A stretch of 64,000 bases of DNA from Thalassotalea marina (GTDB lineage Bacteria; Pseudomonadota; Gammaproteobacteria; Enterobacterales; Alteromonadaceae). The notes below the pieces were generated by a model. The model made no database searches. It was not told the DNA's origin and saw nothing but the letters and a program-made list of their open reading frames with translations. The first letter of the stretch is position 1; each line of letters starts with the position of its first letter. Positions 4,534 through 61,201 of this stretch are shown in pieces. The translations under genes were made by a program, and so were the position numbers. Location: the NCBI RefSeq assembly GCF_014656435.1, contig NZ_BNCK01000013.1, positions 17,067-81,066 on the forward strand, written 5' to 3'.

Positions 4534-4535
4534 AA

Positions 4536-4560
4536 AAACGCAAACTTTAAGTTTGCGTTT
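4536..4560. terminator. Bidirectional intrinsic terminator between small membrane gene and trpA
   Basis: AAACGCAAACT (4536-4546) pairs perfectly with AGTTTGCGTTT (4550-4560) around a three-base loop. A-runs on the left and T-runs on the right mean it can end both the rightward small-gene transcript and the leftward trp operon. Confidence 0.88.
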
Positions 4561-4579
4561 ATTTCGTTCGAATACTGCG

Positions 4580-5407: not shown

Positions 5408-5410
5408 GAA

Positions 5411-6613: not shown

Positions 6614-6614
6614 G

Positions 6615-9022: not shown

Positions 9023-9031
9023 GATCTGCCC

Positions 9032-9640: not shown

Positions 9641-9642
9641 GA

Positions 9643-11262
9643 TCAAGCTCCTACCTTAGTGTTTGACGATACATTGACTAATCGAGCCGATTTTTTAATA
9701 GCATTGATCACCGCTTGGGCTTTTTGACGTGTTTCGTCAGCTTCCGCTTGAGGCTTTGAGTCGTAGACTACACCAGCGCCGGCTTGCACATGCGCGACAT
9801 TATCTTTGACAAAGGCGCTACGAATAACGATGCAAGAATCCATATCACCTTCGCCAGTAATATAACCAACGGCACCACCATAGCTGCCACGACGTTTGCC
9901 TTCATATTGACGAATTAATTCAGTGGCGCGTACTTTTGGTGCTCCTGATAATGTACCCATGTTCATACAAGCTTGATAGGCGTGTAGGGCGTCTAAATCA
10001 TCGGATAATTCGCCACATACGCGAGAAACTAAATGCATGACATGTGAATAACGATCAGTCTTAAGTAAATCAGCCACATGACGTGTACCCGGTTTGCTAA
10101 CGCGAGCGACGTCATTGCGGGCTAAATCGACCAACATGATATGTTCTGCTAATTCTTTTTGATCTTGTCTAAGTTCAAGTTCGATTCTGCAATCTAAATC
10201 CGCGGAAAACTGACCATTGGCAGTAAAACCTCGTGGCCTTGTTCCTGCAATGGGGTATATTTCCACTTGCCTTGTTGATTGTTGATATTTTATGGCTGAT
10301 TCAGGTGATGCACCAAACATGCAAAAGTCTTCATCTTGCAGATAAAACATGTAAGGGCTAGGGTTGCTTTCTCGCAAACAAAGATATGCATTGAAAGTAT
10401 CTTGGCACAATAAACTAAACGTTCTTGATGGCACTACTTGGAAAATATCACCGGCGCGAATATGTTCCTTTAAATGTTCAACTTTTTGGCAAAATGCTTC
10501 ATCGCTAATATCAGTGGCTACCACAATATCACGAGCGTGTGCTTCTTCTACTTGTGGTGGTGCAATGTCTGATTCAACAAGGTTTTTGATGTCAGATAAC
10601 CGTCTAGCAATTTCAAAGTGACACTTTTGCTGATGTTCGCCAGAAAACACATTGCCGATGACTTCACTTGAGCGTTTTTCATGGTCGATCACCACTAAGG
10701 TTTCAGCCAAATAAAACACAAAGTCAGGGCAGGTGTTTGGTCCATTATCAACCTCAGGTAAAACTTCAGCGTTAGCGATCATATCAAAAGCAAACGCGCC
10801 ACCTAAAAACACGGCAAATGGATGATGGCTGTCGTTGTCGATTCGGGTAAATTGTCTTAGACCTTCAAAAGCATTAGTGGCCATTAAGCGGCTTTTTTCG
10901 TCCAAATTAATATCTACAGCAGGGAATGTTGCCGTTAATATTTTATCTTTAACTTGAATATCTGCTTTATCTTTAAGTTGTTGCTCGGCAAAAAGTAATG
11001 CTGATTCACCATTAACGGTTAATGGCGTGAAGGTAACCGTATTGCCATGACAAATTACTTTAGCGGCTGCATCAACCAATAATAAGCTTTTAAGTTGATG
11101 TTTTTTATCAATTTCAGCTGATTCCAGTAATAAATTGTTGTGTTTGTTACCACATAGCTTTTTATATAGCGTTAGTGGATCAGGCTGATACTTTGCTTTA
11201 CTGGTTAAGGTGGTCACCTTACCAATTTTTTGTAAATGTGCTGGATTTAACATAGCTTTCAT
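9643..11262 (-). CDS. trpE: Anthranilate synthase component I
   Basis: The 539-residue chorismate-utilising enzyme makes anthranilate from chorismate, with TrpG providing ammonia. Near the N-terminus LLLES matches the LLES element that binds tryptophan for feedback inhibition in TrpE proteins, so the enzyme is probably end-product inhibited. The catalytic half contains IFQVVPSRTF, PIAGTRPRG, HIMLVDLARND and GGAVGYITG, in family order. The ATG at 11262 overlaps the stop of the DAHP synthase gene by ATGA, tying first-pathway and first-branch enzymes together. Confidence 0.97.
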   Translation of the reverse strand: MKAMLNPAHLQKIGKVTTLTSKAKYQPDPLTLYKKLCGNKHNNLLLESAEIDKKHQLKSLLLVDAAAKVICHGNTVTFTPLTVNGESALLFAEQQLKDKADIQVKDKILTATFPAVDINLDEKSRLMATNAFEGLRQFTRIDNDSHHPFAVFLGGAFAFDMIANAEVLPEVDNGPNTCPDFVFYLAETLVVIDHEKRSSEVIGNVFSGEHQQKCHFEIARRLSDIKNLVESDIAPPQVEEAHARDIVVATDISDEAFCQKVEHLKEHIRAGDIFQVVPSRTFSLLCQDTFNAYLCLRESNPSPYMFYLQDEDFCMFGASPESAIKYQQSTRQVEIYPIAGTRPRGFTANGQFSADLDCRIELELRQDQKELAEHIMLVDLARNDVARVSKPGTRHVADLLKTDRYSHVMHLVSRVCGELSDDLDALHAYQACMNMGTLSGAPKVRATELIRQYEGKRRGSYGGAVGYITGEGDMDSCIVIRSAFVKDNVAHVQAGAGVVYDSKPQAEADETRQKAQAVINAIKKSARLVNVSSNTKVGA

Positions 11263-12275
11263 AATGATTTACCTGTTGCAGCAACAAAAGGTTTAATGTC
11301 AGCCATCAAAGTCGCAAAGTCATCGGCGGTTAAGGCTTGGTGGCCATCAGATAATGCTTCTTTAGGATTGAGGTGGGTCTCAACAATAATACCGTCAGCA
11401 CCTACTGCAACCGATGCTCTTGAAAGAGGGTTAATTAACGATTTAACACCGGTGCCGTGTGACGGGTCAACAAGCACAGGCAAATGCGTTTTTTGTTTTA
11501 AATAGGCAACGGCATTTAAATCTAATGTATTGCGGGTTGCTGTTTCAAACGTGCGAATGCCGCGTTCACACAAAATAACATTAGGATTACCGGCATTAAT
11601 AATATATTCCGCCGCCAACAATAATTCTTCTATGGTAGCGCTCATGCCTCGTTTTAGTAATACGGCTTTGTCTGATTGCTCTCCAACGGCTTCAAGTAAA
11701 CGAAAGTTTTGCATATTACGGGCGCCAATTTGATAACAGTCGATGTAATCATGCATTAATTTAGCGTCATTAGGATCGATAATTTCGGAAACGATTTTAA
11801 GGCCAAATTCCTCTCTTGCCGCTTTTAGTAGCTCTAACCCCTCAACACCTAACCCCTGAAATGAATAGGGACTAGTGCGTGGTTTAAAGGCGCCGCCTCG
11901 CAGCATAGTAATGCCTTGTTGTTTGAGCATTTGACTAATACCAAAGAGCTGCTCTTCACTTTCTACAGAACAAGGGCCTGCAATAACGGAAAAAGTATTG
12001 CCACCAACTTTAACTCCACCTACTGATATTACAGAGTCGTGAGCCTGTAGCTCTCGGCTAACAAGTTTGTATGGGCTTAGAATAGGTTTGATTTCATCAA
12101 CCATAGGGTAGGCGTCTAAGTGAAGTTGACGAAGCACTCGTTCGTCACCTAATGCGCCTAATACGGTGCGTTCAACACCTGGCATATAGAGAGGCTTTAA
12201 GCCAAGACTGGCAATTTTATCTAATATTTCGTTAGCATCCTGTTCAGATGCTTCTGCTTTTAACACAATTATCAT
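11259..12275 (-). CDS. aroF: DAHP synthase, type I-beta, first structural gene of the trp operon
   Basis: The 338-residue enzyme condenses phosphoenolpyruvate and erythrose 4-phosphate, the first step of the shikimate route. The first 70 or so residues (MIIVLKAEASEQDANEILDK...) form a ferredoxin-like regulatory domain of the Thermotoga/Bacillus I-beta class. The TIM-barrel follows, with IAGPCSVES, RGGAFKPRTSP, the KRGMSAT loop and VDPSHGTG. It lacks the N-terminal arm of the E. coli AroF/G/H class. It sits directly behind the trp attenuator and overlaps trpE, so its expression follows tryptophan supply. The gene symbol is only by function. Confidence 0.93.
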   Translation of the reverse strand: MIIVLKAEASEQDANEILDKIASLGLKPLYMPGVERTVLGALGDERVLRQLHLDAYPMVDEIKPILSPYKLVSRELQAHDSVISVGGVKVGGNTFSVIAGPCSVESEEQLFGISQMLKQQGITMLRGGAFKPRTSPYSFQGLGVEGLELLKAAREEFGLKIVSEIIDPNDAKLMHDYIDCYQIGARNMQNFRLLEAVGEQSDKAVLLKRGMSATIEELLLAAEYIINAGNPNVILCERGIRTFETATRNTLDLNAVAYLKQKTHLPVLVDPSHGTGVKSLINPLSRASVAVGADGIIVETHLNPKEALSDGHQALTADDFATLMADIKPFVAATGKSL

Positions 12276-12402
12276 TTTTAAATTCCTAATTTATATAATA
12301 CAAGGGTCAACCGGCGTAAATTGGCTGAAGCCACCAGATAAACCAACTTTTTACTTTCGTTGTTAACATGAATGTTCTCTTAAGTTTTTGAGCCATAAAA
12401 TG

Positions 12403-43767: not shown

Positions 43768-46557
43768 ATGTTGTTAAACGATTTCACGTCTTTATTTCAA
43801 AAACTTTCAACGTATTGTGCACGGTGTTTGTGGTTCGCCTTACTATTTATTGCCTGTTTATTTCTCAAGCCTGCAAACGCTAATTCCGAAAAACCAATCA
43901 TCATGGGGTACTATTCTCAATGGGCTATTTATAGCCCTAATGTACTCATCCAAGATTTACCCGTTCATTTAATGACCCACTTGGTCTATAAAAATGCAGA
44001 TTTAACTCGGCATGGTGAGGTAGTGTTAGGTGACCGTTTTGCAGATATTGAACATTTGTATCTTGGAGCTGACAGAGATGACGAATACTTGGGCAGTTTT
44101 GGCCAGTTAAAAAAAACCAAACGTGACTACCCAGAGCTAAAAACGGTAATTAGTATTGGTGGTTGGAGCCGTTCTGAGCACTTTTCTACTTTGGCAAGTA
44201 CATCCGAGGGACGTGCTATTGTGGCTAAAAACGCTATTGCGTTTATGAAAAAGTATCAATTTGATGGCATTGAAATTGATTGGCAGTTTCCAATTTATCG
44301 AACATCAAGCCCCGACATTGTTAGTAGGCGCGACAATGATGGCAATAACCTTAATTTGTTATTACAAGAAATCAGACGTCAATGTCATGCACAAAATCTT
44401 AATTGTTGGCTGCAAACGATATTAGCGCCATATAGTTTAGAAACAAATTGGGATGCTACTACACTTAATCAGCAAGTTGACGCTGTGGTTATTGATGTAA
44501 CACGATTACCCGGAGACCAAGGAGAGTTAGCCGAGCCTCAGTCGCCGCTTTTTGCTAATAAAGGTGAACGCTCCGTTGATTCTGTCATCAATATATTGTC
44601 GTCATTTGGTGTGAACAAAGACAAAATGGTAATGACCGTTGGTTCATTTGCTGTTGGTTGGGAAGGTGTACCTGATATTAATAATGGCTTTAAACAGCAA
44701 CACAAAACCTTAAGCTGGGGGAGTTGGGACGGGCAACACAGCGGCGCAACGGGTGTGTATAACCAAAAAAATCTATCGTATTTTTTGTCAATTGAAGACT
44801 ATATCGAATACTGGGACGAACGAGGAAAAACCAGTTATTTGTTTAATCCTAAAAAATATGGCGGACACTTTATTGCGTTTGAAAACAAAAGCGCTATCGC
44901 CGCTAAAGTTCTCTACGCCAAGGATAATCAATTGGCTGGAATGGCCGTTAGACAGCTTCATAATGGTGATCGAGCGTTAATTGATGTATTTGATCAGTAT
45001 CATTTTTTTACCAGTAGATATTACAAAATGCTTGAGTTTTGGCTGCAAAACCGTGATGCGCTTATTGTACTGTTGCAAATGATGTCGATTATTTTGATAG
45101 GGATTATTGCTTTTACTGTATTGTTGAACAAAAGAAATAAGGAAGATTTTATACAGCACCAAACGTTTTACCGTTTACAGTACTGGTTACAAGGCATTGA
45201 GTGGCCGCTTTTAAGTGTGGTTACTGCTGCTAACCAAGCAAAAGACAAAGCGTTACTTTCTGCACAACAAGTGAAAGCCATTACCGAACTTTCTTCTCAG
45301 GTTTTACAGCCTTTAGCGTCAATTCTCTCTGAAACAAAACTTAACTCATCGGTTAATCAGATATTTAAAGAAGTTGTTCATTTGCAACAAATCTTGCAAA
45401 ACGTGGCGACTTTATCTGAACTTGAACATGGCCGACAGATATATTGGAACAAAGATGTTTCGTTGCAACTATTGATAAATCCAGATGGATTGCAGCAGTT
45501 TTTATACAATTTATGTGATTTTGCTAGCCAACACAGTAGCCAATTTGAACTTATTACTTTGCATGTTGCGTTTGATCAACAAGGGGGAACAATTGAGTTA
45601 GCATGGGCAGCGGGCGATCAGATAACGTCTTTAAACCATACTAGGCTCAATGCACTACATCATCAGGCGAAGCTACTTGGTGTTTCTCTTTACACCAACA
45701 ACGCAAAAGGCAACTTTACCATAGTATTTCCATCAGAGCTGGTTATGCAAAGTCACAGAGCACAAGAGGGGATTGCATTTAATTTTCAGCAAAAAAAACT
45801 GATCGTTGATAATGTCGAATTGGTCAATGAAAACAAGCCTCAGTTATTAGAAGATTCTGCCTCAAAAGAGTTAGCAATAAAACGAGCCCCGTCACTCAAT
45901 TCATTGTTTATGGCGATCACTTCGTTCAATTTGTCGACCGCGCCGAGTAAAGACATATACAAAGGTTTAGAGCAAGCTTGCCAATATTTTATCGACATTT
46001 TGCAGCAAGAGACAAAAATTACCATCAATCACCATGATCAATTGGTGTCTCGATTAGGAGAAGAAGCTCTTTTATCTAAGAATGAGGTATTGGTTAATGC
46101 TGATGATATTACTGTTGAAATTGTCACTAAAAATAAATTAAGTGAATCCGATCAACAATTAATACAAGTTTTAGTGTACCAAACGTTAATGGTGCAAAAA
46201 GCGATACAGTCTTTGCTAAAAGAGCCAACTGTTTTGTCAGAATTATATGAACTAACCCGTTTTAAGGAAAAAACAAAATATTTAAAAGCCGAGTCAGGTT
46301 ATACCGGAATATATGTTCAAGGTAAAAAAGAGCCCAGATATATTTCTATGCGATTAAGAACCGTGCGTTTGTATTTTGATGAAACTGCCTTGTTACAAAT
46401 ACATCGTTCTTATTTAGTGAATCCCAAAAAGGTTGAGCGGGTAAATCGTGTTTCAAAATTAAAATATGAAGCCATTATTGGTAAAGAATCGTTACCTATA
46501 AGCCGAACTTTTATTCCTGCAATTCAGCAAAGTCATCCTCATTGGTTTAATCATTAA
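43768..46557 (+). CDS. Membrane-bound regulator: inactive GH18 sensor, TM helix, kinase-like region, LytTR DNA-binding domain
   Basis: Residues counted from the GTG at 43750 (935 aa); I prefer the ATG at 43768 (929 aa), though a TTG at 43771 is better spaced from AAGGG. Order: signal/TM helix about 27-45; GH18 barrel about 48-415; TM helix about 437-459; a DHp/HATPase-like stretch about 480-665; a GAF-like stretch about 715-825; LytTR about 835-925 (IHRSYLVNPKKVERVNR). The GH18 keeps SIGGWS (135-140), but the catalytic DxxDxDxE reads DGIEIDWQ (172-179), so the acid Glu is Gln. The MxYD motif and the C-terminal active-site Trp are also lost. The kinase part lacks a G-box. It is probably a chitin-oligosaccharide receptor that directly regulates the receptor and enzyme genes downstream. 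Confidence 0.88.
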   Translation: MLLNDFTSLFQKLSTYCARCLWFALLFIACLFLKPANANSEKPIIMGYYSQWAIYSPNVLIQDLPVHLMTHLVYKNADLTRHGEVVLGDRFADIEHLYLGADRDDEYLGSFGQLKKTKRDYPELKTVISIGGWSRSEHFSTLASTSEGRAIVAKNAIAFMKKYQFDGIEIDWQFPIYRTSSPDIVSRRDNDGNNLNLLLQEIRRQCHAQNLNCWLQTILAPYSLETNWDATTLNQQVDAVVIDVTRLPGDQGELAEPQSPLFANKGERSVDSVINILSSFGVNKDKMVMTVGSFAVGWEGVPDINNGFKQQHKTLSWGSWDGQHSGATGVYNQKNLSYFLSIEDYIEYWDERGKTSYLFNPKKYGGHFIAFENKSAIAAKVLYAKDNQLAGMAVRQLHNGDRALIDVFDQYHFFTSRYYKMLEFWLQNRDALIVLLQMMSIILIGIIAFTVLLNKRNKEDFIQHQTFYRLQYWLQGIEWPLLSVVTAANQAKDKALLSAQQVKAITELSSQVLQPLASILSETKLNSSVNQIFKEVVHLQQILQNVATLSELEHGRQIYWNKDVSLQLLINPDGLQQFLYNLCDFASQHSSQFELITLHVAFDQQGGTIELAWAAGDQITSLNHTRLNALHHQAKLLGVSLYTNNAKGNFTIVFPSELVMQSHRAQEGIAFNFQQKKLIVDNVELVNENKPQLLEDSASKELAIKRAPSLNSLFMAITSFNLSTAPSKDIYKGLEQACQYFIDILQQETKITINHHDQLVSRLGEEALLSKNEVLVNADDITVEIVTKNKLSESDQQLIQVLVYQTLMVQKAIQSLLKEPTVLSELYELTRFKEKTKYLKAESGYTGIYVQGKKEPRYISMRLRTVRLYFDETALLQIHRSYLVNPKKVERVNRVSKLKYEAIIGKESLPISRTFIPAIQQSHPHWFNH

Positions 46558-46899
46558 CATGTTTTAGGGTTCAGTTTATGAATGTGATAACGGGTGTGTT
46601 TTTAATAAAAACCTTTAAAAACAGATTGATATGTGAGTTGTTGGTACGCTTCATGAATTGAGCATGCAAAGCTATATCACTGATCAGTCACGCTTGATAT
46701 GTTTAGGTGGTCACTAGGCTAACACGTGGTACATCGGATAAATTTTAAGTTTGCTCTTATAAGGTAAACTAGCATTCGATAATGACATGAGTATTAAACA
46801 CTTGGATTTATATAAGCTGTGTTTCGGGGTAAGCAAGCGCAAAATATTACGCCTAAGTGATAAGGGAATACCATTAGAAGAATAACTAGAGGTTCGCAT
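46558..46899 (+). promoter_or_regulatory. Intergenic region ahead of the TonB receptor
   Basis: This 342-base gap separates the GH18-LytTR gene from the receptor. It holds no convincing gene. GATAAT (near 46778) is the best -10 candidate, but no good -35 is seen. LytTR proteins bind pairs of short direct repeats. I could not fix such a pair by eye. It is the natural place for the regulator to act. Confidence 0.4.
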
Positions 46900-49800
46900 A
46901 TGTCGACGTCATTTAATAAAAGTTTGATCGCTTTAGCGATAATGGGAAGTGCAACTGTAGCTTATGCTCAGGAGCAAAATGCTGCGAGGACGGTAGCAAA
47001 AGATAAAAAAGCGAATGAATTGGAAGTCATTGAAGTATTGGGGATGCGCCAAAGTGTGCAAAGTGCCCAAGACCTGAAGCGCTACGCGGACACGGTAAAA
47101 GATGCCATTACAGCCACAGATATAGGCGCTTTGCCTGACGTATCAGTGACTGAAGCATTGCAACGTTTACCTGGGGTTACCATAGAGCGTTTTGCCGCAT
47201 CAGATGATCCAAAACATTTCGCTGATGAAGGAACCAGTGTATTGGTTCGCGGATTAGACCGAGTGCGAAGTGAAGTAAATGGCCGTGATTCTTTTAGTGC
47301 GAACCCTTATGGCGGTTTAAGTTATGAAGATTTTCCAGCCGAGCTTTTGGGCGCGGTAGAAGTATTTAAAAATCAAACCGCAGATTTAATCTCTGGGGGA
47401 ATTGCAGGTACCGTTAATCTGGTTACACGCAAACCGTTTGATTCTGACAAGCGTTTGATAGCCTTTGGTGCTAAAGCCAACTATGGTGATTACCGCGAAG
47501 AAACTACACCTTCGTTTAATGCTTTATTCTCAGATAGCTGGGATACCAATTCTGGTAAGTTTGGCTTATTAGTTGCCGCTTCTCGCTCTGAACTACAAAC
47601 TCGAGGTGATGGCTTTGGTTTAGGTAACTTTCATAGCCGTGGTCCTGTAGATACCTTCTCATACGACCAATGGGGAACGCCAAGTCCTGGTGTTATCGCA
47701 GGTCAATATTCTAATCCTTGTATTCCTGGAGCTTCTGACTGGCGTGCATGTGGGCCAGATTTTGCCGATACAGTCCAGTACTCGGACGAAGATGCTGCGG
47801 CATATACGCCTGAATTTGAAGGTCAAGCGTTAGAGGGGCAACCGGACGGGGTAACTTGGTATGCACCAGCGAGCTACACCATTACGTCAGCCGAGAACGA
47901 TCGCATTCGTCGTGGCTTTACTGCGTCACTTCAATGGCAAAGTAAAGATGAGCGCATAACTGCTACTTTAGAGCACATAAATTCAAAAGCATCTTTAGAG
48001 TGGCGCGAACATGTTATCGCTTCTGGTGATCGTGGCTTCTTGCCATATGCGCCAAATGCTATTCAATGGTTTGACGAAAGTGCTGATGGTAGGCCATTAA
48101 CCGTTGATAGTGATGGTTATGTTACTTCAGGAGTTGGTCGTTCAAATGAACCTGAACTACCATTGCAATTCCGTTCGCGTTACAACTTCAATGAAAGCAC
48201 TGTTGAAGATACCTCACTTAACATTAAATTCAAAGCAACAGACAGATTGACGGTTGACTTTGATTATCAGCACATTGATTCAGAGCAAATTGTACATAAT
48301 AACTCATTAACTTCTCGTATTAATGGCAACCAGACCTCAGAATTTGCGCCATTTTTCTTAGATTTGAGGGGATCATCTCCGACTATTGAGTTTTTAAATG
48401 AAAACACGTCAAATCCAGCAGATGTCGAAGCTGATACTAATCCAATATTGCGTTTAGCAAGTGGTATGCAACAAGAAGAGCATAACGAAGCTAATTCTCA
48501 AAGTATTAAATTAGATTTTGATTATGCGTTAGATGGTGCTTTTACCGCTATTAAAGCTGGCGTTTATTATTCAGATAAGGAACTTACGGTTCGAGATACT
48601 GACTACGAAGGTTGGCAAGCATTAGGTACGCCGTGGAATGCTCAAGCTTCATATAATGCGTCTCCGCAGGTAGTTCCTGAGTTATACCAAAGAGTAAACT
48701 TTGGTGATCATTATAATAATCGTACTTTAATAGGGGCATATAACAGCTTTTTGTTTCCACGAATGGACTTAGCTGAAAATTATGCTCAAACATTACGTAA
48801 TGGCTGCGGTACTTGGATAGCTCAAGGAACAGCGATGGACGGCAGCGGTGGCTGTGCTGTACCGTATGAAGACCTTAGCGACCGCGTTCATTCGCACTTT
48901 GCACCTCGTCATATTAGTGGTAGCAACACGGAGCGCACTGAAGTTTACCTACGAGGTGACTTTGATTTTGATATCGAAAAGTATGACATTATTGTCAAAG
49001 GTAACCTTGGATTAAGGTATGTAAATTACCAAGTAGAGTCCAGTGGTGGAATTAATTTACCGTCGACCTCTCGTCGCGGTGCTGATGAAACAGGCTCACT
49101 TTATCAAGTGATGAAAAATCAATATCCGAGTCTTTTTGCTTTAGCATCAGGTGAAAGCTATTTAAGCACTATCGATGGTACTGACTACAGCACAGTCTTA
49201 CCGAGCCTAAACTTAAACTTTGGTATTACTGACGATTTCATTATTCGATTTGGTGCTTCGAAGGGGCTTTATTACCCGAGCCTTGTTGATTCAGCTAACC
49301 GCATGAACATCAGCTTAGATTACCAAGAAGTGTTACAAAATCCTGCTGAGGGTAAAGATGAAGTAACAAACCCGACAGTGGACTTAACCAACATTGAAGT
49401 GAGTGCCAATGCGCGTAATGCTTTCTTAGAGCCTGAAGAATCGGTCAACTTTGACTTAACTACCGAATGGTATTTTGCGGAAGCTGGCTCGGTAACTGTC
49501 GGCTTATTCCACAAAAAACTGTCAAACATTATTCGCAACAAGCAGTTTTCTACCGAAGTTGAAGTAGGTGGCTCTGTGTATCCTGTTTCGGCATATGGCC
49601 CTGCCAATACAGGGTCAGGAACTATTCGTGGTATCGAATTTTCATACTCTCAGTTCTACGATATGTTACCTGGTTTGTGGAGTGGTTTAGGTCTTCAGTT
49701 TAACTATACCTATATTGATCAAGATGGCTTAGAAGATCCAAATACTGCTCCAACAGAAGCGTTAAAGTATGATGGACAAGGTGTACCAGTTGTTGATAAC

Positions 49801-50169
49801 CGCAATAGCTTCCGTCAGTTTACTGGCTTGCCGCTACAAGGTTACTCAGATCAAAACTTCAACATTGTTGGTATGTATGAGAAAAATGATATTTCTTTCC
49901 GTTTAGCTTATACCTGGCGTTCAGAGTACTTACTAACGTTAAGAGAGTCTGAAGAGTTTGTTCCTGCATATTCGAAAGATCAAGGGATGATGGATGCAAG
50001 CTTGTTTTATACCATCAATGAAAACTTCAAAGTTGGTCTACAAGTGAGCAATATATTGGGTGAAGAAACACAAACCCAGTATCAACAAAACCAGCAAGGT
50101 AAGTTAACCGATGCGTTTACCTTTACGACCGACCGTCGTTATGCGTTAACACTTCGCGCAACTTTTTAA
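46900..50169 (+). CDS. TonB-dependent receptor (TonB-Xanth-Caul type)
   Basis: The 1089-residue outer-membrane transporter begins with a signal peptide (KSLIALAIMGSATVAYA cut before QEQ) and a TonB box-like EVIEVLG. The plug domain follows, with the family hallmark DAITATDIGALPDVSVTEAL, then LQRLPGVTIER and GGIAGTVNLVTRKP. The 22-stranded barrel ends in RRYALTLRATF with a terminal Phe. AGAGG precedes the ATG by seven bases. Receptors of this type import oligosaccharides. The GH18 neighbours suggest chito-oligosaccharides, which is inference. Confidence 0.94.
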   Translation: MSTSFNKSLIALAIMGSATVAYAQEQNAARTVAKDKKANELEVIEVLGMRQSVQSAQDLKRYADTVKDAITATDIGALPDVSVTEALQRLPGVTIERFAASDDPKHFADEGTSVLVRGLDRVRSEVNGRDSFSANPYGGLSYEDFPAELLGAVEVFKNQTADLISGGIAGTVNLVTRKPFDSDKRLIAFGAKANYGDYREETTPSFNALFSDSWDTNSGKFGLLVAASRSELQTRGDGFGLGNFHSRGPVDTFSYDQWGTPSPGVIAGQYSNPCIPGASDWRACGPDFADTVQYSDEDAAAYTPEFEGQALEGQPDGVTWYAPASYTITSAENDRIRRGFTASLQWQSKDERITATLEHINSKASLEWREHVIASGDRGFLPYAPNAIQWFDESADGRPLTVDSDGYVTSGVGRSNEPELPLQFRSRYNFNESTVEDTSLNIKFKATDRLTVDFDYQHIDSEQIVHNNSLTSRINGNQTSEFAPFFLDLRGSSPTIEFLNENTSNPADVEADTNPILRLASGMQQEEHNEANSQSIKLDFDYALDGAFTAIKAGVYYSDKELTVRDTDYEGWQALGTPWNAQASYNASPQVVPELYQRVNFGDHYNNRTLIGAYNSFLFPRMDLAENYAQTLRNGCGTWIAQGTAMDGSGGCAVPYEDLSDRVHSHFAPRHISGSNTERTEVYLRGDFDFDIEKYDIIVKGNLGLRYVNYQVESSGGINLPSTSRRGADETGSLYQVMKNQYPSLFALASGESYLSTIDGTDYSTVLPSLNLNFGITDDFIIRFGASKGLYYPSLVDSANRMNISLDYQEVLQNPAEGKDEVTNPTVDLTNIEVSANARNAFLEPEESVNFDLTTEWYFAEAGSVTVGLFHKKLSNIIRNKQFSTEVEVGGSVYPVSAYGPANTGSGTIRGIEFSYSQFYDMLPGLWSGLGLQFNYTYIDQDGLEDPNTAPTEALKYDGQGVPVVDNRNSFRQFTGLPLQGYSDQNFNIVGMYEKNDISFRLAYTWRSEYLLTLRESEEFVPAYSKDQGMMDASLFYTINENFKVGLQVSNILGEETQTQYQQNQQGKLTDAFTFTTDRRYALTLRATF

Positions 50170-50279: not shown

Positions 50280-51803
50280 ATGCAACAAGGGATCAAGTCA
50301 ATTTGTATAGTAGGTGGTGGTACCGCTGGTTGGATGGCGGCTTCTTTACTTTCCACTGTCCTCAAAGGCTGTAAAACCAAAATTGTGGTCGTTGAATCAC
50401 CTGATATTTCAACGATTGGTGTTGGTGAATCGACAGTACCATCGATTATGGACTTTTTGCACGCTTGTCAAATTGACGTAAAAAGCTTTATTCAAGCAAC
50501 TTCCGCAACTTTTAAGTTAGGAATTCGTTTTGATGACTGGTATGAAGTAAACGAACAGTATTTCCACCCATTTGGGCGTATTGGTAAAGACGTCAATGGT
50601 TTTGATTTTTATCAAGTTTGGCTCAAATCTTTAAGCTCAGGCAGTCAGGCGGCATTATTAGATTATTCTGTAAATGCTCAAATGGCTAAAAGCCAACGTT
50701 TTGTTTTTAGGCCTCAAAGTACCGATAATTGGGTGCTGGCAAATAGCGCTCACGCATTACATTTAGATGCCACGCAAGTGACACAGTTTTTAAGAAAGCT
50801 ATGTTTGCAACGTGGTGTTGAGCGGATTGAGGCAACTGTTTGTGACGTAGAACTTGAACAACAAGGTTTTATTAAGCAGTTAACGACTAAATGCCAACAA
50901 ACGATAAAGAGTGATTTTTATATTGATTGCACCGGTTTTAACGCATTGTTAATTGAAAAGTCTTTAGGCGTTTCGTTTGACAATTGGTCAGATTTTTTAC
51001 CGTGCGATCGCGCGGTAACCATTCAAACAAAAACTGAACATTCGCCATCACCTTATACTATCGCTAAAGCACAACCAGCAGGTTGGTCTTGGACAATACC
51101 ATTGCAACACAGAACGGGTAATGGTTATGTTTTTTGTAGCCGATTTTGTAGTGATGAACAGGCGATTAAAACGCTACAATATAACCTTGAAGGCGTTACG
51201 TTAAGTGAGCCAAAGATTATTCCATTTACAACGGGTAAACGAGAAAAAATCTGGCATAAAAACTGTCTTTCATTAGGATTGGCAAGTGGTTTTCTTGAGC
51301 CGCTTGAGTCTACTGCAATTCATTTGGTGTACAAAACCTTAGTGCATTTTATACAACACTTTCCAGATGCGGATTTTGACCTAAAAAATACCGAGTTGTT
51401 TAATCAAAAAATTGATCAGGACTACTTGGAAATCCGAGACTTCATTATTTTGCATTACGCCACCGCACAGCGTGATGATAGTGATTTTTGGCAGTGGTGT
51501 ACAAATATGCCAGTTCCTCAGAGCCTTAAACATAAATTATCTCTGTTTAAACAGCGTGGCCAATTAGAGCAAGTTCATGGTCAGTTTTTCACTCAGGATA
51601 GTTGGTGTGCAATTTTAGAGGGTATGCATATTCGACCTGAAAAGTATCACCCGCTTATAGATGGCTTTCATCAACAGAGCCTCGCTGACATGCTGTTAAA
51701 AAATGTCAAGGCGATTCAAGCGACTGTCGAAGCAATGCCATTACATGCAGATTTTATACGTCAGCATTGTCCTGCAAATGCATTTAATGTGTCAGAGGTT
51801 TGA
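50280..51803 (+). CDS. Flavin-dependent tryptophan-halogenase homologue 1
   Basis: The 507-residue flavoprotein has the GxGxxG FAD motif (VGGGTAGWMAAS, about 11-22), the lysine that forms the haloamine or holds HOCl in PrnA (Lys79 in ATFKLGIRF), the WxWxIP motif that blocks monooxygenase chemistry (WSWTIP, 269-274), and the active-site Glu in EPLEST (343). All halogenase hallmarks are intact. Such proteins recur beside TonB receptors in marine and plant-associated proteobacteria, where their substrate is mostly unknown. A one-base gap separates it from the cupin gene. Confidence 0.92.
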   Translation: MQQGIKSICIVGGGTAGWMAASLLSTVLKGCKTKIVVVESPDISTIGVGESTVPSIMDFLHACQIDVKSFIQATSATFKLGIRFDDWYEVNEQYFHPFGRIGKDVNGFDFYQVWLKSLSSGSQAALLDYSVNAQMAKSQRFVFRPQSTDNWVLANSAHALHLDATQVTQFLRKLCLQRGVERIEATVCDVELEQQGFIKQLTTKCQQTIKSDFYIDCTGFNALLIEKSLGVSFDNWSDFLPCDRAVTIQTKTEHSPSPYTIAKAQPAGWSWTIPLQHRTGNGYVFCSRFCSDEQAIKTLQYNLEGVTLSEPKIIPFTTGKREKIWHKNCLSLGLASGFLEPLESTAIHLVYKTLVHFIQHFPDADFDLKNTELFNQKIDQDYLEIRDFIILHYATAQRDDSDFWQWCTNMPVPQSLKHKLSLFKQRGQLEQVHGQFFTQDSWCAILEGMHIRPEKYHPLIDGFHQQSLADMLLKNVKAIQATVEAMPLHADFIRQHCPANAFNVSEV

Positions 51804-51804
51804 T

Positions 51805-52821
51805 ATGACATCATTTCTTTCAATCGACGAATATACAAATGTTTGCGCTGATAAATTTTATAATGAAGTGGTACCCGCACAAAAACCAATAGTCATTCGA
51901 GGTTTTGCAACGCATTGGCCGCTAGTTCAAACAGGAAAATCGTCACCAGAAGAGTGGGTACAATACATCAATCAGTTTTATAACGGCAATAAAACTAACA
52001 TGGTGGTGGCTCCACCATATGAAAACAAACGCTTTTATTACAATCATGATCTTACTGGTGTGAATTTTTTATCGGGTGAGGAAAGAGTTGATTTGTTTTT
52101 AGGTCGTTTACTTGAATTGATCGATCGAGACGTTTACCCCGCAATTTCGATGCAAGGCACACCAATCGAGTCAATTTTGCCTGAGCTAATGAAAGACAAT
52201 CCAACGGAATTTTTTACCGATGTTCAACCTAGGTTATGGATTGGCAATGAAGGTATCGTCAATACACATTATGATGGCTCTGATAATGTTGCTTGTGTGG
52301 TAGCTGGTCGCCGTCAATTTATTCTTTTCCCACCAGATCAAACTAAAAACCTATATCCCGGACCACTAAACTTTACACCAGCTGGCGCGCCAACCAGTCT
52401 GGTGGATATAAACAATCCAGATTTCGAACGATACCCTTTGTTTGAAGAAGCACTTGATCATGCTTACTTTGCTGAATTGGCGCCGGGTGATGCTATTTTC
52501 ATTCCTATGTTGTGGTGGCATCACGTTGAGTCGTTAGACAAAGTTAATGCATTAATTAACTATTGGTGGAATGGTGCATCAGCAGTCAATGCAGTAGCAC
52601 CAAGTGCTATCGACAGCTTAAATATCGCACTCTTGGCAATGCGAAATTTAAACCTTGAGCAGCGCAACTCGTGGCGTCACTTGTTTGATCATTACTTGTT
52701 TAAACAAGGAGTAGAACCAACGTCTTATATCCCAGAGCATCAACAGCATTTACTCGGCAACCTGTCTGATGATTATGTCGAAAAAGTCAGGCAATACTTT
52801 GCAAATAAGTTGAGCCAATAG
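51805..52821 (+). CDS. Cupin-like (JmjC/Cupin_8) Fe(II)/2-oxoglutarate oxygenase family protein
   Basis: From the ATG at 51805 (AGAGG seven bases ahead) the protein is 338 residues. A longer frame overlaps the halogenase and is rejected. The metal triad is seen as His155-x-Asp157 in NTHYDGSDN and His239 or His240 in MLWWHHVES. KPIVIRGFATHWPL near the N-terminus is typical for JmjC-type hydroxylases. It sits between two halogenase homologues with tight spacing, so it probably modifies the same substrate or protein. Confidence 0.9.
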   Translation: MTSFLSIDEYTNVCADKFYNEVVPAQKPIVIRGFATHWPLVQTGKSSPEEWVQYINQFYNGNKTNMVVAPPYENKRFYYNHDLTGVNFLSGEERVDLFLGRLLELIDRDVYPAISMQGTPIESILPELMKDNPTEFFTDVQPRLWIGNEGIVNTHYDGSDNVACVVAGRRQFILFPPDQTKNLYPGPLNFTPAGAPTSLVDINNPDFERYPLFEEALDHAYFAELAPGDAIFIPMLWWHHVESLDKVNALINYWWNGASAVNAVAPSAIDSLNIALLAMRNLNLEQRNSWRHLFDHYLFKQGVEPTSYIPEHQQHLLGNLSDDYVEKVRQYFANKLSQ

Positions 52822-52851: not shown

Positions 52852-54354
52852 ATGTTAGAAAATACCAGCTTGCCTAAAAAAATTGTCATCGTTGGTGGAG
52901 GCACTGCAGGGTGGATGGCAGCTAATTTGTTAGCGACACGGTGGAAAAATAGTGAAATTCAAGTCGTTGAATCACAAGATGTTGGCATTATTGGTGTTGG
53001 GGAAGGTAGTACTCCACATTTAAAGTTGTTTTTTGATGCAATAGGTTTGCAAGATCAGCAATGGATGGCGCAATGCAACGCGACATACAAAACAGGGATC
53101 AGGTTTGAACATTGGTCTAAAGTTGCTGGATTTGAGTCTTATTTTCATCCCTTTGCTGCGCAGACCGATGATGTATTTACCCTGCCTCTGTTTTACAAGA
53201 ATATTCAGGCGCGAATGCAAGGTTTAGCGGTCAATGCTCATCCTGATCATTACTTTTTGGAGTCGTACTTGGCAAAACATAAATTAGGCCCAGTGCCTGA
53301 TGAATGTTTCCCGTTTGGTGTTGCCTATGGCTATCATTTTGATTCAGCGCTTTTAGGTCAGTTTTTAGCTACGCATGCACAAGGGTTAAAAGTTAAAAGA
53401 ATCATTGGGCATGTTGAAAATGTGTTGCAACATGAAAATGGCAATATAAAAGCCGTTTGTTTAACCGATGGCTGCCAGTTGGACGCTGATTTTTTCATTG
53501 ATTGTTCTGGCTTTCAAAGCTTACTGTTGCAAGGAGCATTACAAGCAAAGTTTGTTAGCTATCAGGATAATTTAGTGAACAACGCTGCGGTTGTAATGCC
53601 GAGCAATATTACATCTCCATTGCCTGTTGAAACTAAGTCTACTGCTTTAACGAGCGGTTGGGCATGGCAGATCCCGCTAAAAGAGCGTTTTGGTAATGGA
53701 TACGTTTATAGCAAGGAATATATCGACAGTGACCAAGCGGAAACCGAGTTAAGGCAACATTTAAATTTGCTAGATAGCGATGTTGAAGCTAGGCATTTAT
53801 CGATAAAAGTTGGTCGAGTTGAGCAACACTGGTACAAAAACTGTCTGGCTGTGGGTTTGTCACAAGGCTTTATTGAACCGTTAGAGGCAACCGCCATTGC
53901 GTTAGCATTTAATACTATTTCGCAATTTATTCAGTGTGTTGAACAAGGCAAGGGGACCAGTCAATTTCAAAAGGCTTTCAATGACGATATTAATCAGCGT
54001 TTTGATGGCATTCGAGATTACATTGTTTGCCACTATAAAATGAATCAACGTTTAGATAATGACTACTGGCTAGACAGAGCAGGTGAACAGCAATTATCAG
54101 ATAATTTAAACCGTATTTTGTACCTGTGGCATAACAGTAAAGATTTTGTCCAAGATATGTTTCAACACAATGTTTGGGGGGCATACCAGCCAAAATCCTG
54201 GGCATGTATGTTAGCTGGGTATGGTGTCTTTCCAAGTATAAATAAGGCGCATCAAATGAATACGGCGGCATATCAGCATGAAATGACTGGCCTAGATGAT
54301 TTTATTCGACGTTGCGGATTAAATTTTAAAATTCATGAACAGCAACTTAAGTAA
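52852..54354 (+). CDS. Flavin-dependent tryptophan-halogenase homologue 2
   Basis: The 500-residue paralogue of the first halogenase has VGGGTAGWMAANLL, Lys80 in ATYKTGIRF, WAWQIP at 270-275 and EPLEATAI. In the last motif the residue after the Glu is Ala instead of Ser. The two share layout but diverge in the central substrate region, so they likely act on different positions or substrates. GAGAGAAG lies ahead of the ATG. It is 30 bases after the cupin gene and 20 bases before the chitinase, so it is in the same operon. Confidence 0.92.
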   Translation: MLENTSLPKKIVIVGGGTAGWMAANLLATRWKNSEIQVVESQDVGIIGVGEGSTPHLKLFFDAIGLQDQQWMAQCNATYKTGIRFEHWSKVAGFESYFHPFAAQTDDVFTLPLFYKNIQARMQGLAVNAHPDHYFLESYLAKHKLGPVPDECFPFGVAYGYHFDSALLGQFLATHAQGLKVKRIIGHVENVLQHENGNIKAVCLTDGCQLDADFFIDCSGFQSLLLQGALQAKFVSYQDNLVNNAAVVMPSNITSPLPVETKSTALTSGWAWQIPLKERFGNGYVYSKEYIDSDQAETELRQHLNLLDSDVEARHLSIKVGRVEQHWYKNCLAVGLSQGFIEPLEATAIALAFNTISQFIQCVEQGKGTSQFQKAFNDDINQRFDGIRDYIVCHYKMNQRLDNDYWLDRAGEQQLSDNLNRILYLWHNSKDFVQDMFQHNVWGAYQPKSWACMLAGYGVFPSINKAHQMNTAAYQHEMTGLDDFIRRCGLNFKIHEQQLK

Positions 54355-54374: not shown

Positions 54375-55406
54375 ATGTATAAACAAGTTATTAAACGATG
54401 TTTAGCGTTAGCTACAATTTTTATCTTACCGCTAAATGTGTTGGCACAAATAAAAGTGATCGGTTATTTACCCGGCTATCAAGGTATAAAAACTCAAGTG
54501 GATCAGATTGATTTAACTAAAATCAGTCATTTAACTCTGGCTTTTTTACACCCAGATAAAAAAGGAAACTTTAGAGCGAATGGTCAACCTGTTTGCATGG
54601 TGGGAAAACATGGCAAAACGTTAAGCTCAGCAGAAATAGACTATGTGATCAACAAGGTTCACCAAGCTGGAAAAAAGGTTTTAATTTCAATTGGTGGCGC
54701 CGCTTATCCAAGTTGTGCAGGCGATTGGGCGACATTGCTAAATAAAAACAACCGTCAGTCGACAATAGAGCATTTATTAGATTTTGTTGATAGTTACCAG
54801 TTTGACGGACTAGATATCGACATTGAAGGGAGATTACTGACCCAAATCGATCAAAATGGGCATTTTGTTCCTTTTATCGAACAATTGAAACTGCACTTTG
54901 CTAAACATAACAAGCTGCTAAGTGCTGCGACGGGATCTTATCAAGGTGGCATGATGCCACAAGCTTCCCTCAAATATTTTGATTTTGTGTCGATTATGTC
55001 TTACGACGCCATAGGGCCAACCTGGGGGCCTGCTGGTGTTGAACACTCGACCTTAAGTAAAGCAAAAGCAGATATCTCGTTATGGCGAAGTAAAGGATTA
55101 ACAAAAGAAAAAATCATCTTGGGCTTACCATTTTACGGTTATGGATTTGGCAAATATCAAGCCGAATATAGATTTAGAGAAATTCTAGAACAATTTGGTA
55201 AGGAGAAAAGCCAGACAGATCTTATCAATAACAATTGCGCTGATTGCGATTATATTACCTTTAATGGCTATCAGACGATAAAAGCGAAAACCCAACTTGC
55301 CATTGAACAAGCTGGCGGTGTGATGATTTGGGAGTTATCTCACGACAGGCACGATGAACTTGGCTTACTTCATTTAATTGATCAAACAATAAAGCAACAA
55401 AAATAA
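54375..55406 (+). CDS. Secreted GH18 chitinase (catalytically intact)
   Basis: The 343-residue protein has a signal peptide (VIKRCLALATIFILPLNVLA) and a single GH18 domain. The catalytic DxxDxDxE is complete as DGLDIDIE (144-151, acid Glu151). SxGG (LISIGGAA), MSYD and the C-terminal active-site Trp in VMIWELSHD are also present. There is no chitin-binding module, so soluble oligomers or periplasmic action fit better than attack on crystalline chitin. It closes the operon that begins at the TonB receptor and is followed by a terminator. Confidence 0.92.
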   Translation: MYKQVIKRCLALATIFILPLNVLAQIKVIGYLPGYQGIKTQVDQIDLTKISHLTLAFLHPDKKGNFRANGQPVCMVGKHGKTLSSAEIDYVINKVHQAGKKVLISIGGAAYPSCAGDWATLLNKNNRQSTIEHLLDFVDSYQFDGLDIDIEGRLLTQIDQNGHFVPFIEQLKLHFAKHNKLLSAATGSYQGGMMPQASLKYFDFVSIMSYDAIGPTWGPAGVEHSTLSKAKADISLWRSKGLTKEKIILGLPFYGYGFGKYQAEYRFREILEQFGKEKSQTDLINNNCADCDYITFNGYQTIKAKTQLAIEQAGGVMIWELSHDRHDELGLLHLIDQTIKQQK

Positions 55407-55561: not shown

Positions 55562-55978
55562 ATGATGGTACACGATACTTTACCTATCACGATTAAAGCA
55601 GACAAAGAAGCTGGTCGCCGGTTTCCAACACTAGGGGCTGTGTGCAATAAACTCGAAGCGCAGTTAAATTTTATTGCCATGACAGCTGGATGGTTTGCTG
55701 ATGAAAATCATGAAGTCACATTGTCATTTGATATCTCAACAAACGCTTTAACGGCAACTGACTTAGTGCAACAAGGTGATGAAGTGATAGAAATCGCCGA
55801 TGATGCCATACTTATTTTTCATCAGGGCACATTTCACTATCATGGTATACTTTCTATCACTCAGCCTGAACAGCAAATCATTTTGCAGCAAAAAGCGGTA
55901 CTGCCTTTATTGCTCGATAAAAAATGCATATTGATGTTAAATGTGGTTGCTCAACGCGAGTCATTGAGCACACTTTAA
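55562..55978 (+). CDS. Hypothetical protein, 138 residues
   Basis: The soluble product has no signal or membrane segment. Its start MMVHDTLPITIKADKEAGRR and the segments VTLSFDISTNALTATDLV and HQGTFHYHGILSI show alternating hydrophobic residues, suggesting a beta-rich fold. I recognise no family. It stands alone after the chitin-locus terminator and converges with the LysE gene. Confidence 0.6.
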   Translation: MMVHDTLPITIKADKEAGRRFPTLGAVCNKLEAQLNFIAMTAGWFADENHEVTLSFDISTNALTATDLVQQGDEVIEIADDAILIFHQGTFHYHGILSITQPEQQIILQQKAVLPLLLDKKCILMLNVVAQRESLSTL

Positions 55979-57559: not shown

Positions 57560-57820
57560 CGAGGTGTGTCAGCAACTATATTTATGCGCATTAATAACAA
57601 TATAGTCCATCATTGAAGCAATAAAATCAATTTTAACCTTGTGGTATCTATGATGTAATCATTGCTAACTAATATTAGAGATAGCAATTAGGCACAAATA
57701 TTGATCTTGAAGGTAAGTAAAATGCCTTAGATTAAAATTAGCGACTAAACTAAAACACTGACTAGGCGTATTAGTTTTTGCCAATTGCGTAGATATTTCG
57801 TCATAAAGAAGAGAACGACA

Positions 57821-60800
57821 ATGACAACTGAAAGATACGAATTAAAAAACAAGGTGCGTGTAGTTACTGCAGCTTCGTTATTCGATGGTCATGATGCAGC
57901 TATCAACATTATGCGTCGTATATTGCAATCAAGCGGCGTCGAAGTTATTCACTTAGGCCATGACCGCAGTGTGGAAGAAGTTGTTAATACGGCAATTCAA
58001 GAAGATGCTAATGCTATTGCGATGACGTCTTACCAAGGTGGTCATAACGAATACTTCAAATATATGTACGACCTGCTTAAAGAACGCGGTTGTGAACATA
58101 TTCGAATCGTCGGTGGTGGCGGTGGCGTTATTTTGCCAGACGAAATAAAAATGCTGCATGACTATGGTATTACTCGTATTTACTCTCCAGATGATGGCAG
58201 AGCACTAGGTCTACAAGGCATGATCGATGATATGATCATGCGTTGTGATTTTAAAACCGGCGTAAATATCAAAAAAGACGATGTTGCAGCCCTTAAAAAG
58301 AATGATAAACAAGCTATTGCACGTCTGATTTCTGCTGCAGAAAATGCACCAGAAGAAAACAAAGCTGATTTAGACAAAATTCGAAAAATTGCCGCAGTGA
58401 GCAAAACGCCAGTATTAGGTATTACCGGTACAGGTGGCGCTGGTAAATCGTCATTGGTTGATGAATTAATCCGTCGATTTTTGATGGCAACAGAAGAAAG
58501 CAAAATTGCGATTGTTTCTGTTGATCCATCAAAACGCAAAACAGGAGGCGCATTATTAGGTGACCGTATTCGTATGAATGCGGTAAACAACGACCGTGTT
58601 TACATGCGATCACTGGCCACTCGTCAATCGAACTTAGCGCTTTCTGTTTATGTTAATGACACGCTCGATATTTTAAAAGCGGCAGACTTTGATTTAATCA
58701 TTTTAGAAACCTCAGGCATTGGTCAATCAGATACCGAAATAGAAGAGCACTCAGATGTATCTTTATATGTGATGACGCCTGAATACGGTGCGGCAACACA
58801 ATTAGAAAAAATCGACATGTTAGATTTCGCCGACATTATTGCGGTGAATAAATCTGATAAGCGTGGCGCAGAAGACGCATTACGTGATGTAAAGAAACAA
58901 TACAAACGTAACCGTGGCTTGTTTGAAGCCGGTGACGATGAAGTGCCAGTATTTGGTACTATCGCATCGCAGTTTAATGATCGCGGTATGACGGAGCTTT
59001 ACAATAAAATTATCACCGAATTGGCGAAAAAATCAGAAGCGTTAAACGTTGATTTGTTAGATTTAGCTGGCACACAGGCTGAAAAAGCCAGTGTTATTCC
59101 GGGTAAACGCACTCGTTATTTATCTGAAATTGCTGATAATAACCGTGGTTACGATGAATGGGTTAATCAACAAGCTACCGTTGCGCAAAAGCTATACGGT
59201 ATTCAACAGGCAATTGATGCAGCGTTGGAAAGTGGTGAAGAAAGTGGCAAAACACTGGCGGCTAACCTTCAAGAATTATTTGATAAAGTTGCACTAGATT
59301 TAGATCCAAAAAATAAACTGATCATTGATCAGTGGCATGAAAAAGTAGCTAAATACAAAGCGCCAGTGTTTAAGTTTCAAGTGCGTAACAAAGAGCTTGC
59401 TATTGAAACGCACTCAAAATCTCTGTCTCATCTTGATATTCCTAAAGTATGTTTGCCCAAATACCAAGGTTGGGGTGATATTTTAAAATGGAATTTGCAA
59501 GAAAACGTACCAGGTGAATTCCCGTATACGTCAGGTTTATTCCCATTCAAACGTGAAGGGGAAGATCCTACACGTATGTTTGCGGGTGAAGGTGGCCCAG
59601 AGCGTACTAACCGACGCTTTCACTATGTATCTAAAGGCATGCCTGCAAAACGTCTATCTACCGCGTTTGACTCAGTAACACTGTATGGTAACGACCCTCA
59701 TGTACGACCTGATATTTACGGTAAAATTGGTAATGCTGGTGTCTCTATTTGCTGTTTAGACGATGCGAAAAAGCTTTATTCAGGCTTTAACTTGGCGCAT
59801 CCAGCAACATCAGTATCCATGACCATTAACGGTCCAGCGCCAATTTTGCTAGGATTTTTCTTAAATGCTGCTATTGATCAGCAATGTGAAATCTACATTA
59901 AAGAGCAAGGCCTTGAAAAAGACGTCGAAGCAAAAATTAATGCCATCTACAAAGCTAAAGGTTGTGCTCGTCCACAATATCAAGGTGAATTACCAGAAGG
60001 TAATGACGGCTTAGGCTTAATGTTGTTAGGTGTTACTGGTGATCAAGTATTGCCAGCAGATGTTTATGCAGACATTAAAGCAAAAACATTGACTCAGGTA
60101 CGTGGTACTGTTCAAGCAGACATTTTAAAAGAAGATCAGGCGCAAAATACTTGTATTTTCTCAACAGAATTTGCCTTGCGTTTAATGGGCGACGTTCAAG
60201 AATACTTTATTGATAAAGGCGTACGTAACTTCTACTCAGTATCAATTTCTGGCTATCATATTGCAGAAGCTGGTGCTAACCCAATTACACAATTAGCGTT
60301 AACATTGGCCAACGGTTTTACGTTTGTTGAATATTACTTAAGCCGTGGTATGGATATCAACGAGTTTGGCCCTAACCTATCTTTCTTCTTCTCAAATGGT
60401 ATCGACCCAGAATATGCCGTTATTGGCCGTGTTGCCCGTCGTATTTGGTCAAAAGCGATGAAGATGAAATATAACGCCAACGCTCGCGCACAAATGCTGA
60501 AATACCATATTCAAACGTCAGGCCGCTCTCTACACGCGCAAGAAATTGATTTCAACGATATACGTACCACACTTCAAGCTCTGTACGCGATTTATGATAA
60601 CTGTAATTCGCTTCATACCAATGCGTATGATGAAGCAATCACAACGCCAACAGAAGAAAGTGTACGCCGTGCAATGGCAATTCAGTTAATTATTAACCGT
60701 GAATTAGGTTTAGCTAAAAACGAAAACCCTATTCAAGGCTCGTTCATCATTGAAGAATTAACTGATTTAGTTGAAGAAGCAGTTTTGACTGAATTTGACC

Positions 60801-61201
60801 GCATCACAGAGCGTGGTGGTGTACTTGGTGCAATGGAAACCATGTACCAACGCAGTAAAATTCAAGAAGAAAGCTTATACTACGAAAACTTAAAACATAC
60901 TGGTGAATACCCAATTATCGGTGTTAATACTTTCTTAAGTTCAAAAGGCTCTCCAACTGTTATTCCAGCAGAGGTTATTCGAGCGACAGAAGAAGAGAAA
61001 AATTACCAAATAGATATGTTAGCAAGTTTACATCAAGCGAACGAAGAACAAACTCGTATGAAACTTAGAGAGCTTCAGGCGGCGGCTATCAAACACGAAA
61101 ACATTTTTGAGCATATGATGGATGCTTGTAAAGTTTGTTCACTAGGACAAGTCGTTAGTGCATTGTTTGAAGTTGGCGGACAATATCGAAGAAACATGTA
61201 A
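57821..61201 (+). CDS. icmF: Fused isobutyryl-CoA mutase / G-protein chaperone
   Basis: The protein (1126 residues from the ATG at 57821) fuses three parts: a B12-binding domain (about 10-140, cobalamin His24 in DGHDAA), a MeaI-type GTPase (P-loop GTGGAGKS, 203-210; [16 protein letters not shown]), and a mutase substrate domain (about 560-1126). This order is that of IcmF, which interconverts isobutyryl-CoA and n-butyryl-CoA and, in some cases, isovaleryl-CoA and pivalyl-CoA. A 12-codon longer frame is not supported by a ribosome site. The built-in GTPase guards cofactor loading. Confidence 0.94.

Follow-up and report, generated by a model that had tools for sequence, protein, structure and literature searches.

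The window analyzed here is the whole 64,000-nucleotide stretch of the Thalassotalea marina genome (contig NZ_BNCK01000013.1, positions 17,067 to 81,066). It contains a gene for a 929-residue protein that is followed, on the same strand, by genes for a TonB-dependent receptor, a Trp_halogenase family protein, a cupin, a second Trp_halogenase family protein, and a GH18 enzyme, in that order (Table 1). The 929-residue protein joins a GH18 (chitinase-type) domain, via a transmembrane (TM) helix, to a kinase-like region, a GAF-like region, and a LytTR DNA-binding domain. We propose that it is probably a one-component receptor for chito-oligosaccharides: its catalytically dead GH18 domain would bind a chitin oligosaccharide without cutting it, and its LytTR domain would activate the adjacent receptor–halogenase–chitinase operon.

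The domains of this chain are recognizable by sequence and by fold. When the modelled GH18 part was used as the query, the top ranks in Foldseek were all GH18, and the closest solved relatives by sequence are GH18 chitinases. The LytTR domain is present by both sequence and fold, and the region behind the TM helix has the CA/DHp fold of sensor histidine kinases. A receiver domain was not found in the protein. According to its hydropathy, the N-terminus is hydrophobic, and the TM segment near residues 431-453 is directly followed by NKRNK. By the positive-inside rule, which we used to orient the TM segment, the GH18 barrel should lie outside and the remainder of the chain inside. With this predicted topology (a sensor outside the membrane, one TM helix, and a DNA-binding domain inside, all in one chain), the protein has the architecture of a transmembrane one-component regulator.

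The GH18 domain lacks the features of an active GH18 chitinase, namely the Glu of DxxDxDxE, the Tyr and Asp of MxYD, and a Trp on strand 8. In its catalytic motif, DGIEIDWQ, Gln173 takes the position of the acid/base Glu; MxYD is replaced by DVTR; and the strand-8 Trp is replaced by Arg395. Among 44 family rows (which include P0035, which has no LytTR domain, and close relatives such as P0001 and P0002, which are 98% identical), the catalytic position is Q in 23, R in 7, N in 4, L in 3, P in 3, I in 2, A in 1, and H in 1, but never Glu, while all 15 GH18 enzymes that are encoded beside family members have the Glu. Because Glu is absent across the family, its loss is not a single strain's mutation. 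The strand-8 Trp is retained in only five of the 44 rows. Three tryptophans of the cleft (Trp52, Trp133, and Trp320) are retained in 42, 43, and 41 rows, respectively. In a tree (which omits P0002, has flagged long branches, and has the partner enzymes as its sole outgroup), the 15 partners lie on one side of a branch with support of 100/98, and the catalytic residue switched several times among non-Glu types. The only free-standing close GH18 relative of the sensor is P0035, which also lacks the Glu (it has Pro) and is probably a truncated regulator.

Judging from its residues, the kinase part is dead too. In a 30-row alignment (29 relatives with both domains, from two protein searches, plus the window protein), the phospho-His position is Q in 26 rows, R in 2, K in 1, and H in 1; the window protein has Q475 there. 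None of the 30 rows has the N-box Asn, with one row gapped; these kinase box positions were assigned by reading the alignment. No kinase model matched any of the 30 members at E ≤ 1. The folded domains are nevertheless under purifying selection: between G066 and G128, the ratio of nonsynonymous to synonymous substitution rates (dN/dS) is 0.048 for GH18, 0.089 for the pseudokinase, 0.035 for the GAF-like region, and 0.022 for LytTR, as compared to 0.44 for the linker. With a mean identity of 0.51 over 28 members, GH18 ranks among the more conserved parts. The nearest proteins of a different architecture (P0027, P0032, and P0033) are hybrid histidine kinases with a receiver and a LytTR domain. 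All three match models of HATPase and of the receiver, P0032 and P0033 match HisKA as well, and, unlike the window protein, none has a GH18 domain; P0032 shares its output end with the window protein (31% identity over 143 residues). Also, a distant regulator (L065) has a trace of HisKA (E = 1.1e-5, just under the cut-off). We infer that the ancestor was a hybrid kinase with a LytTR end, which would have dropped its receiver and catalysis and gained a chitinase as its sensor. An earlier, sequence-only reading of this DNA had described the same chain: a GH18 domain with Gln for the catalytic Glu and without MxYD or the active-site Trp, one TM helix, a degenerate kinase-like region, and LytTR. 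Pfam, fold comparison, hydropathy, and the lost GH18 and kinase residues all agree with that description, and the LytTR fold appears at the C-terminus of the predicted structure.

Table 1. Features of the regulator gene, the promoter region, and the predicted target operon (window coordinates).
Feature	Position	Strand	Basis
Regulator gene, GH18–TM–pseudokinase–GAF-like–LytTR	43768..46557	+	929 aa, open reading frame without internal stop
N-terminal signal-like segment, ~residues 1-39	43768..43884	+	Hydropathy; cleavage predicted by eye
GH18 domain, residues 45-394, predicted periplasmic	43900..44949	+	Pfam E 3.3e-54; fold
Gln173 codon (place of catalytic Glu)	44284..44286	+	Motif alignment
TM helix, ~residues 431-453	45058..45126	+	Hydropathy; helix 429-493 in structure model
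Pseudokinase region, ~residues 475-660, DHp-like helices and CA-like fold	45190..45747	+	Fold; lost residues
GAF-like region, residues 710-818	45895..46221	+	Structure model, conservation; fold named from element order
LytTR DNA-binding domain, residues 837-921	46276..46530	+	Pfam E 5.5e-11; fold
Promoter repeat copy a, predicted operator	46569..46582	+	Repeat scan
Promoter repeat copy b (spaced 75 bp from copy a), predicted operator	46644..46657	+	Repeat scan
TTGATA, conserved TTGNTA hexamer, predicted -35 element	46694..46699	+	Fixed distance to copy b
TonB-dependent receptor (TIGR01782), first gene of predicted target operon	46900..50169	+	Domain match
Trp_halogenase family protein	50280..51803	+	Domain match
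Cupin_8 protein	51703..52821	+	Domain match; overlaps previous gene, start probably further downstream
Second Trp_halogenase family protein	52852..54354	+	Domain match
GH18 enzyme, catalytic residues intact (DGLDIDIE, MSYD, strand-8 Trp)	54375..55406	+	Domain match, motifs

The GH18–LytTR architecture recurs. Both domains are present in all 30 members, whose identity to the window protein ranges from 26% to 98%. At E ≤ 1e-30, genome searches matched 13 of the 295 genomes from the family and 9 of the 394 from the order. A class-wide search, which scored two candidates per genome, matched 4 of 369 genomes at E ≤ 1e-40, with a full-length match only in the window genome; among the five other class-wide matches, the three longer frames that we checked (not L108 or L110) are GH18 proteins without LytTR. 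A search of plasmids gave no match to the regulator. The named hosts are Thalassotalea and Colwellia, which are labelled Colwelliaceae. Four genomes of the family labelled f12 also have shorter members (704-742 aa, about 200 residues less). These short proteins (L070-L073) have Arg at the catalytic position, keep the strand-8 Trp, and lie upstream of a deacetylase-like gene. Another relative (L052, G514:C190:36934-39684) has seven in-frame stops and is likely a decayed copy. As far as these searches reach, the GH18–LytTR protein is a family that is general within several marine bacterial families.

Counting the window genome, 11 Colwelliaceae genomes have a close ortholog. In 10 of them (the window plus L002, L003, L004, L019, L020, L021, L022, L023, and L028), the receptor gene is directly downstream of the regulator and has the same orientation; in the remaining one (L027), the contig runs out after the regulator. 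The four other loci of the Thalassotalea group (L002, L004, L019, and L020) are without the cupin and the second halogenase. In L021-L023, the leucine-degradation genes upstream are replaced, so the regulator and the operon stayed together in a different place. In all four f12 genomes, a full-length regulator lies upstream of two GH18 genes that retain both Glu and MxYD, the first of which carries CBM5/12, and the short form lies upstream of a chitin-deacetylase-like protein (ChitinaseA_N, deacetylase, and a weak CBM5/12). G029 and G035, which are of the same family as the window genome, hold three distant members (L024, L025, and L026) without the receptor operon. L024 is adjoined by a divergent CBM5/12 deacetylase-like gene and L025 by a ricin-B-lectin protein.

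In all 10 genomes compared, the spacer between the regulator and the receptor contains a pair of KTWCRNTTYRTGAW copies with a spacing of 73-76 bp (found by eye and then by script). In 500 shuffles of the spacers, the pair occurred in a mean of 1.3 of the 10, with a maximum of 5. Because the compared genomes are related, the promoter counts given here are not independent events. To look beyond these promoters, we considered the receptor orthologs (41 matches at 30 loci, of which 29 were used; L093 was omitted because only 82 bp of its contig precede the match). All 9 genomes that carry the regulator have a pair with at least 24 of 28 matches upstream of the receptor, while none of the 20 orthologs from genomes without the regulator exceeds 22 of 28 (for 7 of these 20, whose match starts at residue 306, the scan covered the 585 bp preceding an assumed start). 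Twelve of these 20 receptors are 74-83% identical to the window receptor. Also, the two-site pattern matches the 4.87-Mb genome once, in the regulator–receptor spacer, as compared to 5 matches for a reversed control. With the near-identical G066 and G099 counted once, there are 9 non-redundant promoters, and TTGNTA lies 36 or 37 bp downstream of copy b in all 9. In G076, the second of two overlapping repeat pairs was used here; with the first pair, the repeat scan gives 9 of 10. A generic sigma-70 scan did not call this promoter. We infer that the LytTR domain binds these repeats. The sequence-only reading had proposed a one-component regulator of the adjacent operon, and those parts of it that can be tested by sequence come out in its favor: the catalytic Glu is missing throughout the family but present in the partner enzymes, the kinase signature residues are lost, the linkage to the operon persists despite changed upstream neighbors, and the repeat co-occurs with the regulator.

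In relatives, a second element ties the operon to N-acetylglucosamine (GlcNAc). The palindrome TGACAGCGCTGTCA, which is very probably the operator of NagR, is in 9 of the 10 operon promoters. In Shewanella, NagR is a LacI-family repressor of GlcNAc use, according to the available text of PMC2996990. The palindrome is also in 11 of the 13 receptor orthologs without the regulator for which we have the full upstream sequence, so across the family the receptor operon seems to belong to the GlcNAc regulon, and the membrane regulator would be an additional layer of control. In the window genome, copies with one mismatch occur at four places of one stretch, where they precede a LacI-family gene, a receptor–halogenase–halogenase run, a GH20 hexosaminidase, and nagK, nagB-II, and nagA. 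The sole exact copy (L075) is near a NagX-like gene (below its cut-off), and further places are on contigs C2 (two) and C6 (one). Within the stretch L074 (G000:C1:45001-65000, at 4446-12353), the probable NagR cluster includes, next to GH20 and nagKBA, another TonB receptor and three genes for Trp_halogenase family proteins. Because of this cluster, halogenase-family genes accompany GlcNAc-polymer uptake twice in the window genome.

We propose the following mechanism. The sugar would be captured in the periplasm by the blunted GH18 cleft, and the change would pass through the TM helix and the pseudokinase, which would act as a mechanical relay and dimer scaffold and not as a phosphotransfer enzyme. 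LytTR domains would then occupy the two sites, whose 75-bp spacing is about seven helical turns, and assist RNA polymerase at the TTGNTA promoter. Relatives would have a further signal from within the cell, that of GlcNAc catabolism, through the NagR-type operator that shares the promoter. The window genome, which has no such operator in this promoter, would rely there on the membrane regulator.

Several observations weigh against this proposal. The repeat consensus was derived from the same ten promoters in which the pair was counted, so the tests outside those promoters weigh more. There are no convincing copies of the repeat upstream of the regulator itself (six loci) or in two f12 loci, and a scan of the 10 promoters with a LytTR consensus gave no shared pair. 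The link to GlcNAc through TGACAGCGCTGTCA is absent from the window promoter (46558-46899). Furthermore, the regulator gene and the GH18 gene within the operon are the only two of their kind in the window genome, and no large set of chitin-degrading genes is apparent. Among the distant members, the two tested neighbors of L026 gave no Pfam match, and L065 and L069 (f11) have no adjacent chitin gene among the neighbors tested. The remaining two points, which concern the geometry of the repeats and the residues of the cleft, each suggest an alternative.

The predicted operator consists of 14-bp units 75 bp apart, whereas described LytTR sites are 9-bp direct repeats with a spacing of 10-13 bp (PMC11347149, as far as its available text goes). 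The unit is also partly palindromic (TTCATGAA in some copies). So, the repeats might belong to another transcription factor that is co-distributed with the regulator, and the membrane regulator would act elsewhere or repress. We consider this unlikely because the repeat is in the spacer adjoining the regulator gene, because of its 9-of-9 versus 0-of-20 distribution, and because of the single two-site match in the genome. Activation would also fit the majority of LytTR regulators, which bind upstream of the -35 element and activate (available text of PMC11347149). As for the cleft, Arg is found at positions 135, 246, and 395 (P0001 numbering) in 33, 20, and 27 of the 44 rows, and at none of these positions in the 15 partner enzymes, which all have Asp at 246 and Trp at 395. 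Because these conserved arginines occupy active-site positions, the ligand may not be plain chitin. It could instead be a glycan that is acidic or modified, for example oxidised chitin fragments, a sulfated sugar, or a sugar with muramic acid. This seems unlikely, as all three arginines occur together in only 12 of the 44 rows and as GlcNAc polymers in general are suggested by the neighbors and by the NagR-type operator.

Replacement of the catalytic-site residues would also fit a GH18 domain that does not bind glycan directly but docks a periplasmic sugar-binding protein, like the sensor region of ChiS, and receives its signal second-hand. We think this improbable: the cleft tryptophans are kept in 41-43 of the 44 rows, GH18 is among the better conserved parts of the protein, and no gene for a sugar-binding protein is next to the regulator in the window. 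Finally, the gene might be that of an ordinary chitinase with a chance or decaying fusion. Database names of relatives include "chitinase" and "glycosyl hydrolase family 18 protein," and the G514 relative is interrupted by stops. But this explanation is very hard to sustain, given that both domains persist in every member down to 26% identity and that none of the 44 rows has the Glu. A decaying fusion was rejected because dN/dS is 0.02-0.09 in the folded parts. Thus, we favor the one-component receptor for chito-oligosaccharides.

Parts of this arrangement have precedents. In the RsgI-type anti-sigma factors of Clostridium thermocellum, an extracytoplasmic glycoside-hydrolase domain or carbohydrate-binding module is the polysaccharide sensor of a membrane regulator, as we propose here; their output, however, is release of a sigma factor, unlike DNA binding in the same chain. 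ChiS of Vibrio cholerae is a hybrid sensor kinase that is activated through the chitin-binding protein CBP (available portions of PMC11856585 and PMC10208484). By its described mechanism alone, ChiS is similar in being a membrane-anchored, chitin-linked regulator that binds DNA directly, activates a chitin-sugar operon, and carries an outside signal to a promoter in one protein. The window protein differs in its dead GH18 sensor, its lost kinase residues, the lack of a detected receiver, and its LytTR output. CoxC, as described in the available text of PMC11347149, has its membrane sensor and LytTR in a single chain and no partner kinase, so a membrane LytTR protein can act alone. But CoxC has an MHYT gas sensor of several TM helices, is a repressor, and recognizes three 8-bp repeats at short spacing, whereas the window protein has a periplasmic enzyme-fold sensor, is a predicted activator, and has repeats 75 bp apart. 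More broadly, the window protein resembles the transmembrane transcription regulators, one-component proteins that act from the cytoplasmic membrane (PMC10269533); the available text of that paper names no glycoside-hydrolase sensor among them ("glycos" has 0 occurrences).

Our literature searches, which had most subscription papers outside their scope, found no description of a GH18–LytTR protein as a sensor. A related case is in Andreprevotia ripae, where LytTR appears in the legend of Figure 1 among the domains of the drawn GH18, GH19, GH20, and lytic polysaccharide monooxygenase proteins, and 4 of 25 secreted GH18s are without the Glu; the accessible part of that paper takes these proteins for putative chitinases and does not interpret them as sensors or regulators (PMC8802321). 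PMC1790865 has no occurrence of halogenase, cupin, SapC, or N-acetyl.

How marine bacteria notice solid polymers such as chitin before digestion is a central question in carbon cycling. If our proposal is true, then there is a second solution beside ChiS, in which a blunted copy of the class of enzyme that attacks chitin is wired to DNA in one chain. It would be a pseudo-enzyme turned receptor, with a predicted operator, and a possible glycan biosensor. It would also be a warning that some of these regulator genes are now named chitinase. More tentatively, we suggest a wider picture that we hold possible rather than probable: a family of dead-chitinase transcription factors that, in the Colwelliaceae, might form a two-signal gate with NagR at one promoter (polymer fragments outside, GlcNAc catabolism inside), and whose Arg-bearing cleft might distinguish oxidised from plain chitin fragments.

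Two other genes in the window may be mentioned. Downstream of the operon, 55562-55978 encodes a 138-aa protein with no Pfam match, and proteins that are 34-39% identical to it are encoded directly upstream of the regulator in the loci of seven relatives (for example, L002 at 9399-9821). Further along, 57785-61201 encodes a methylmalonyl-CoA-mutase-type protein of 1138 aa that fuses B12-binding, MeaB-type GTPase, and mutase domains.
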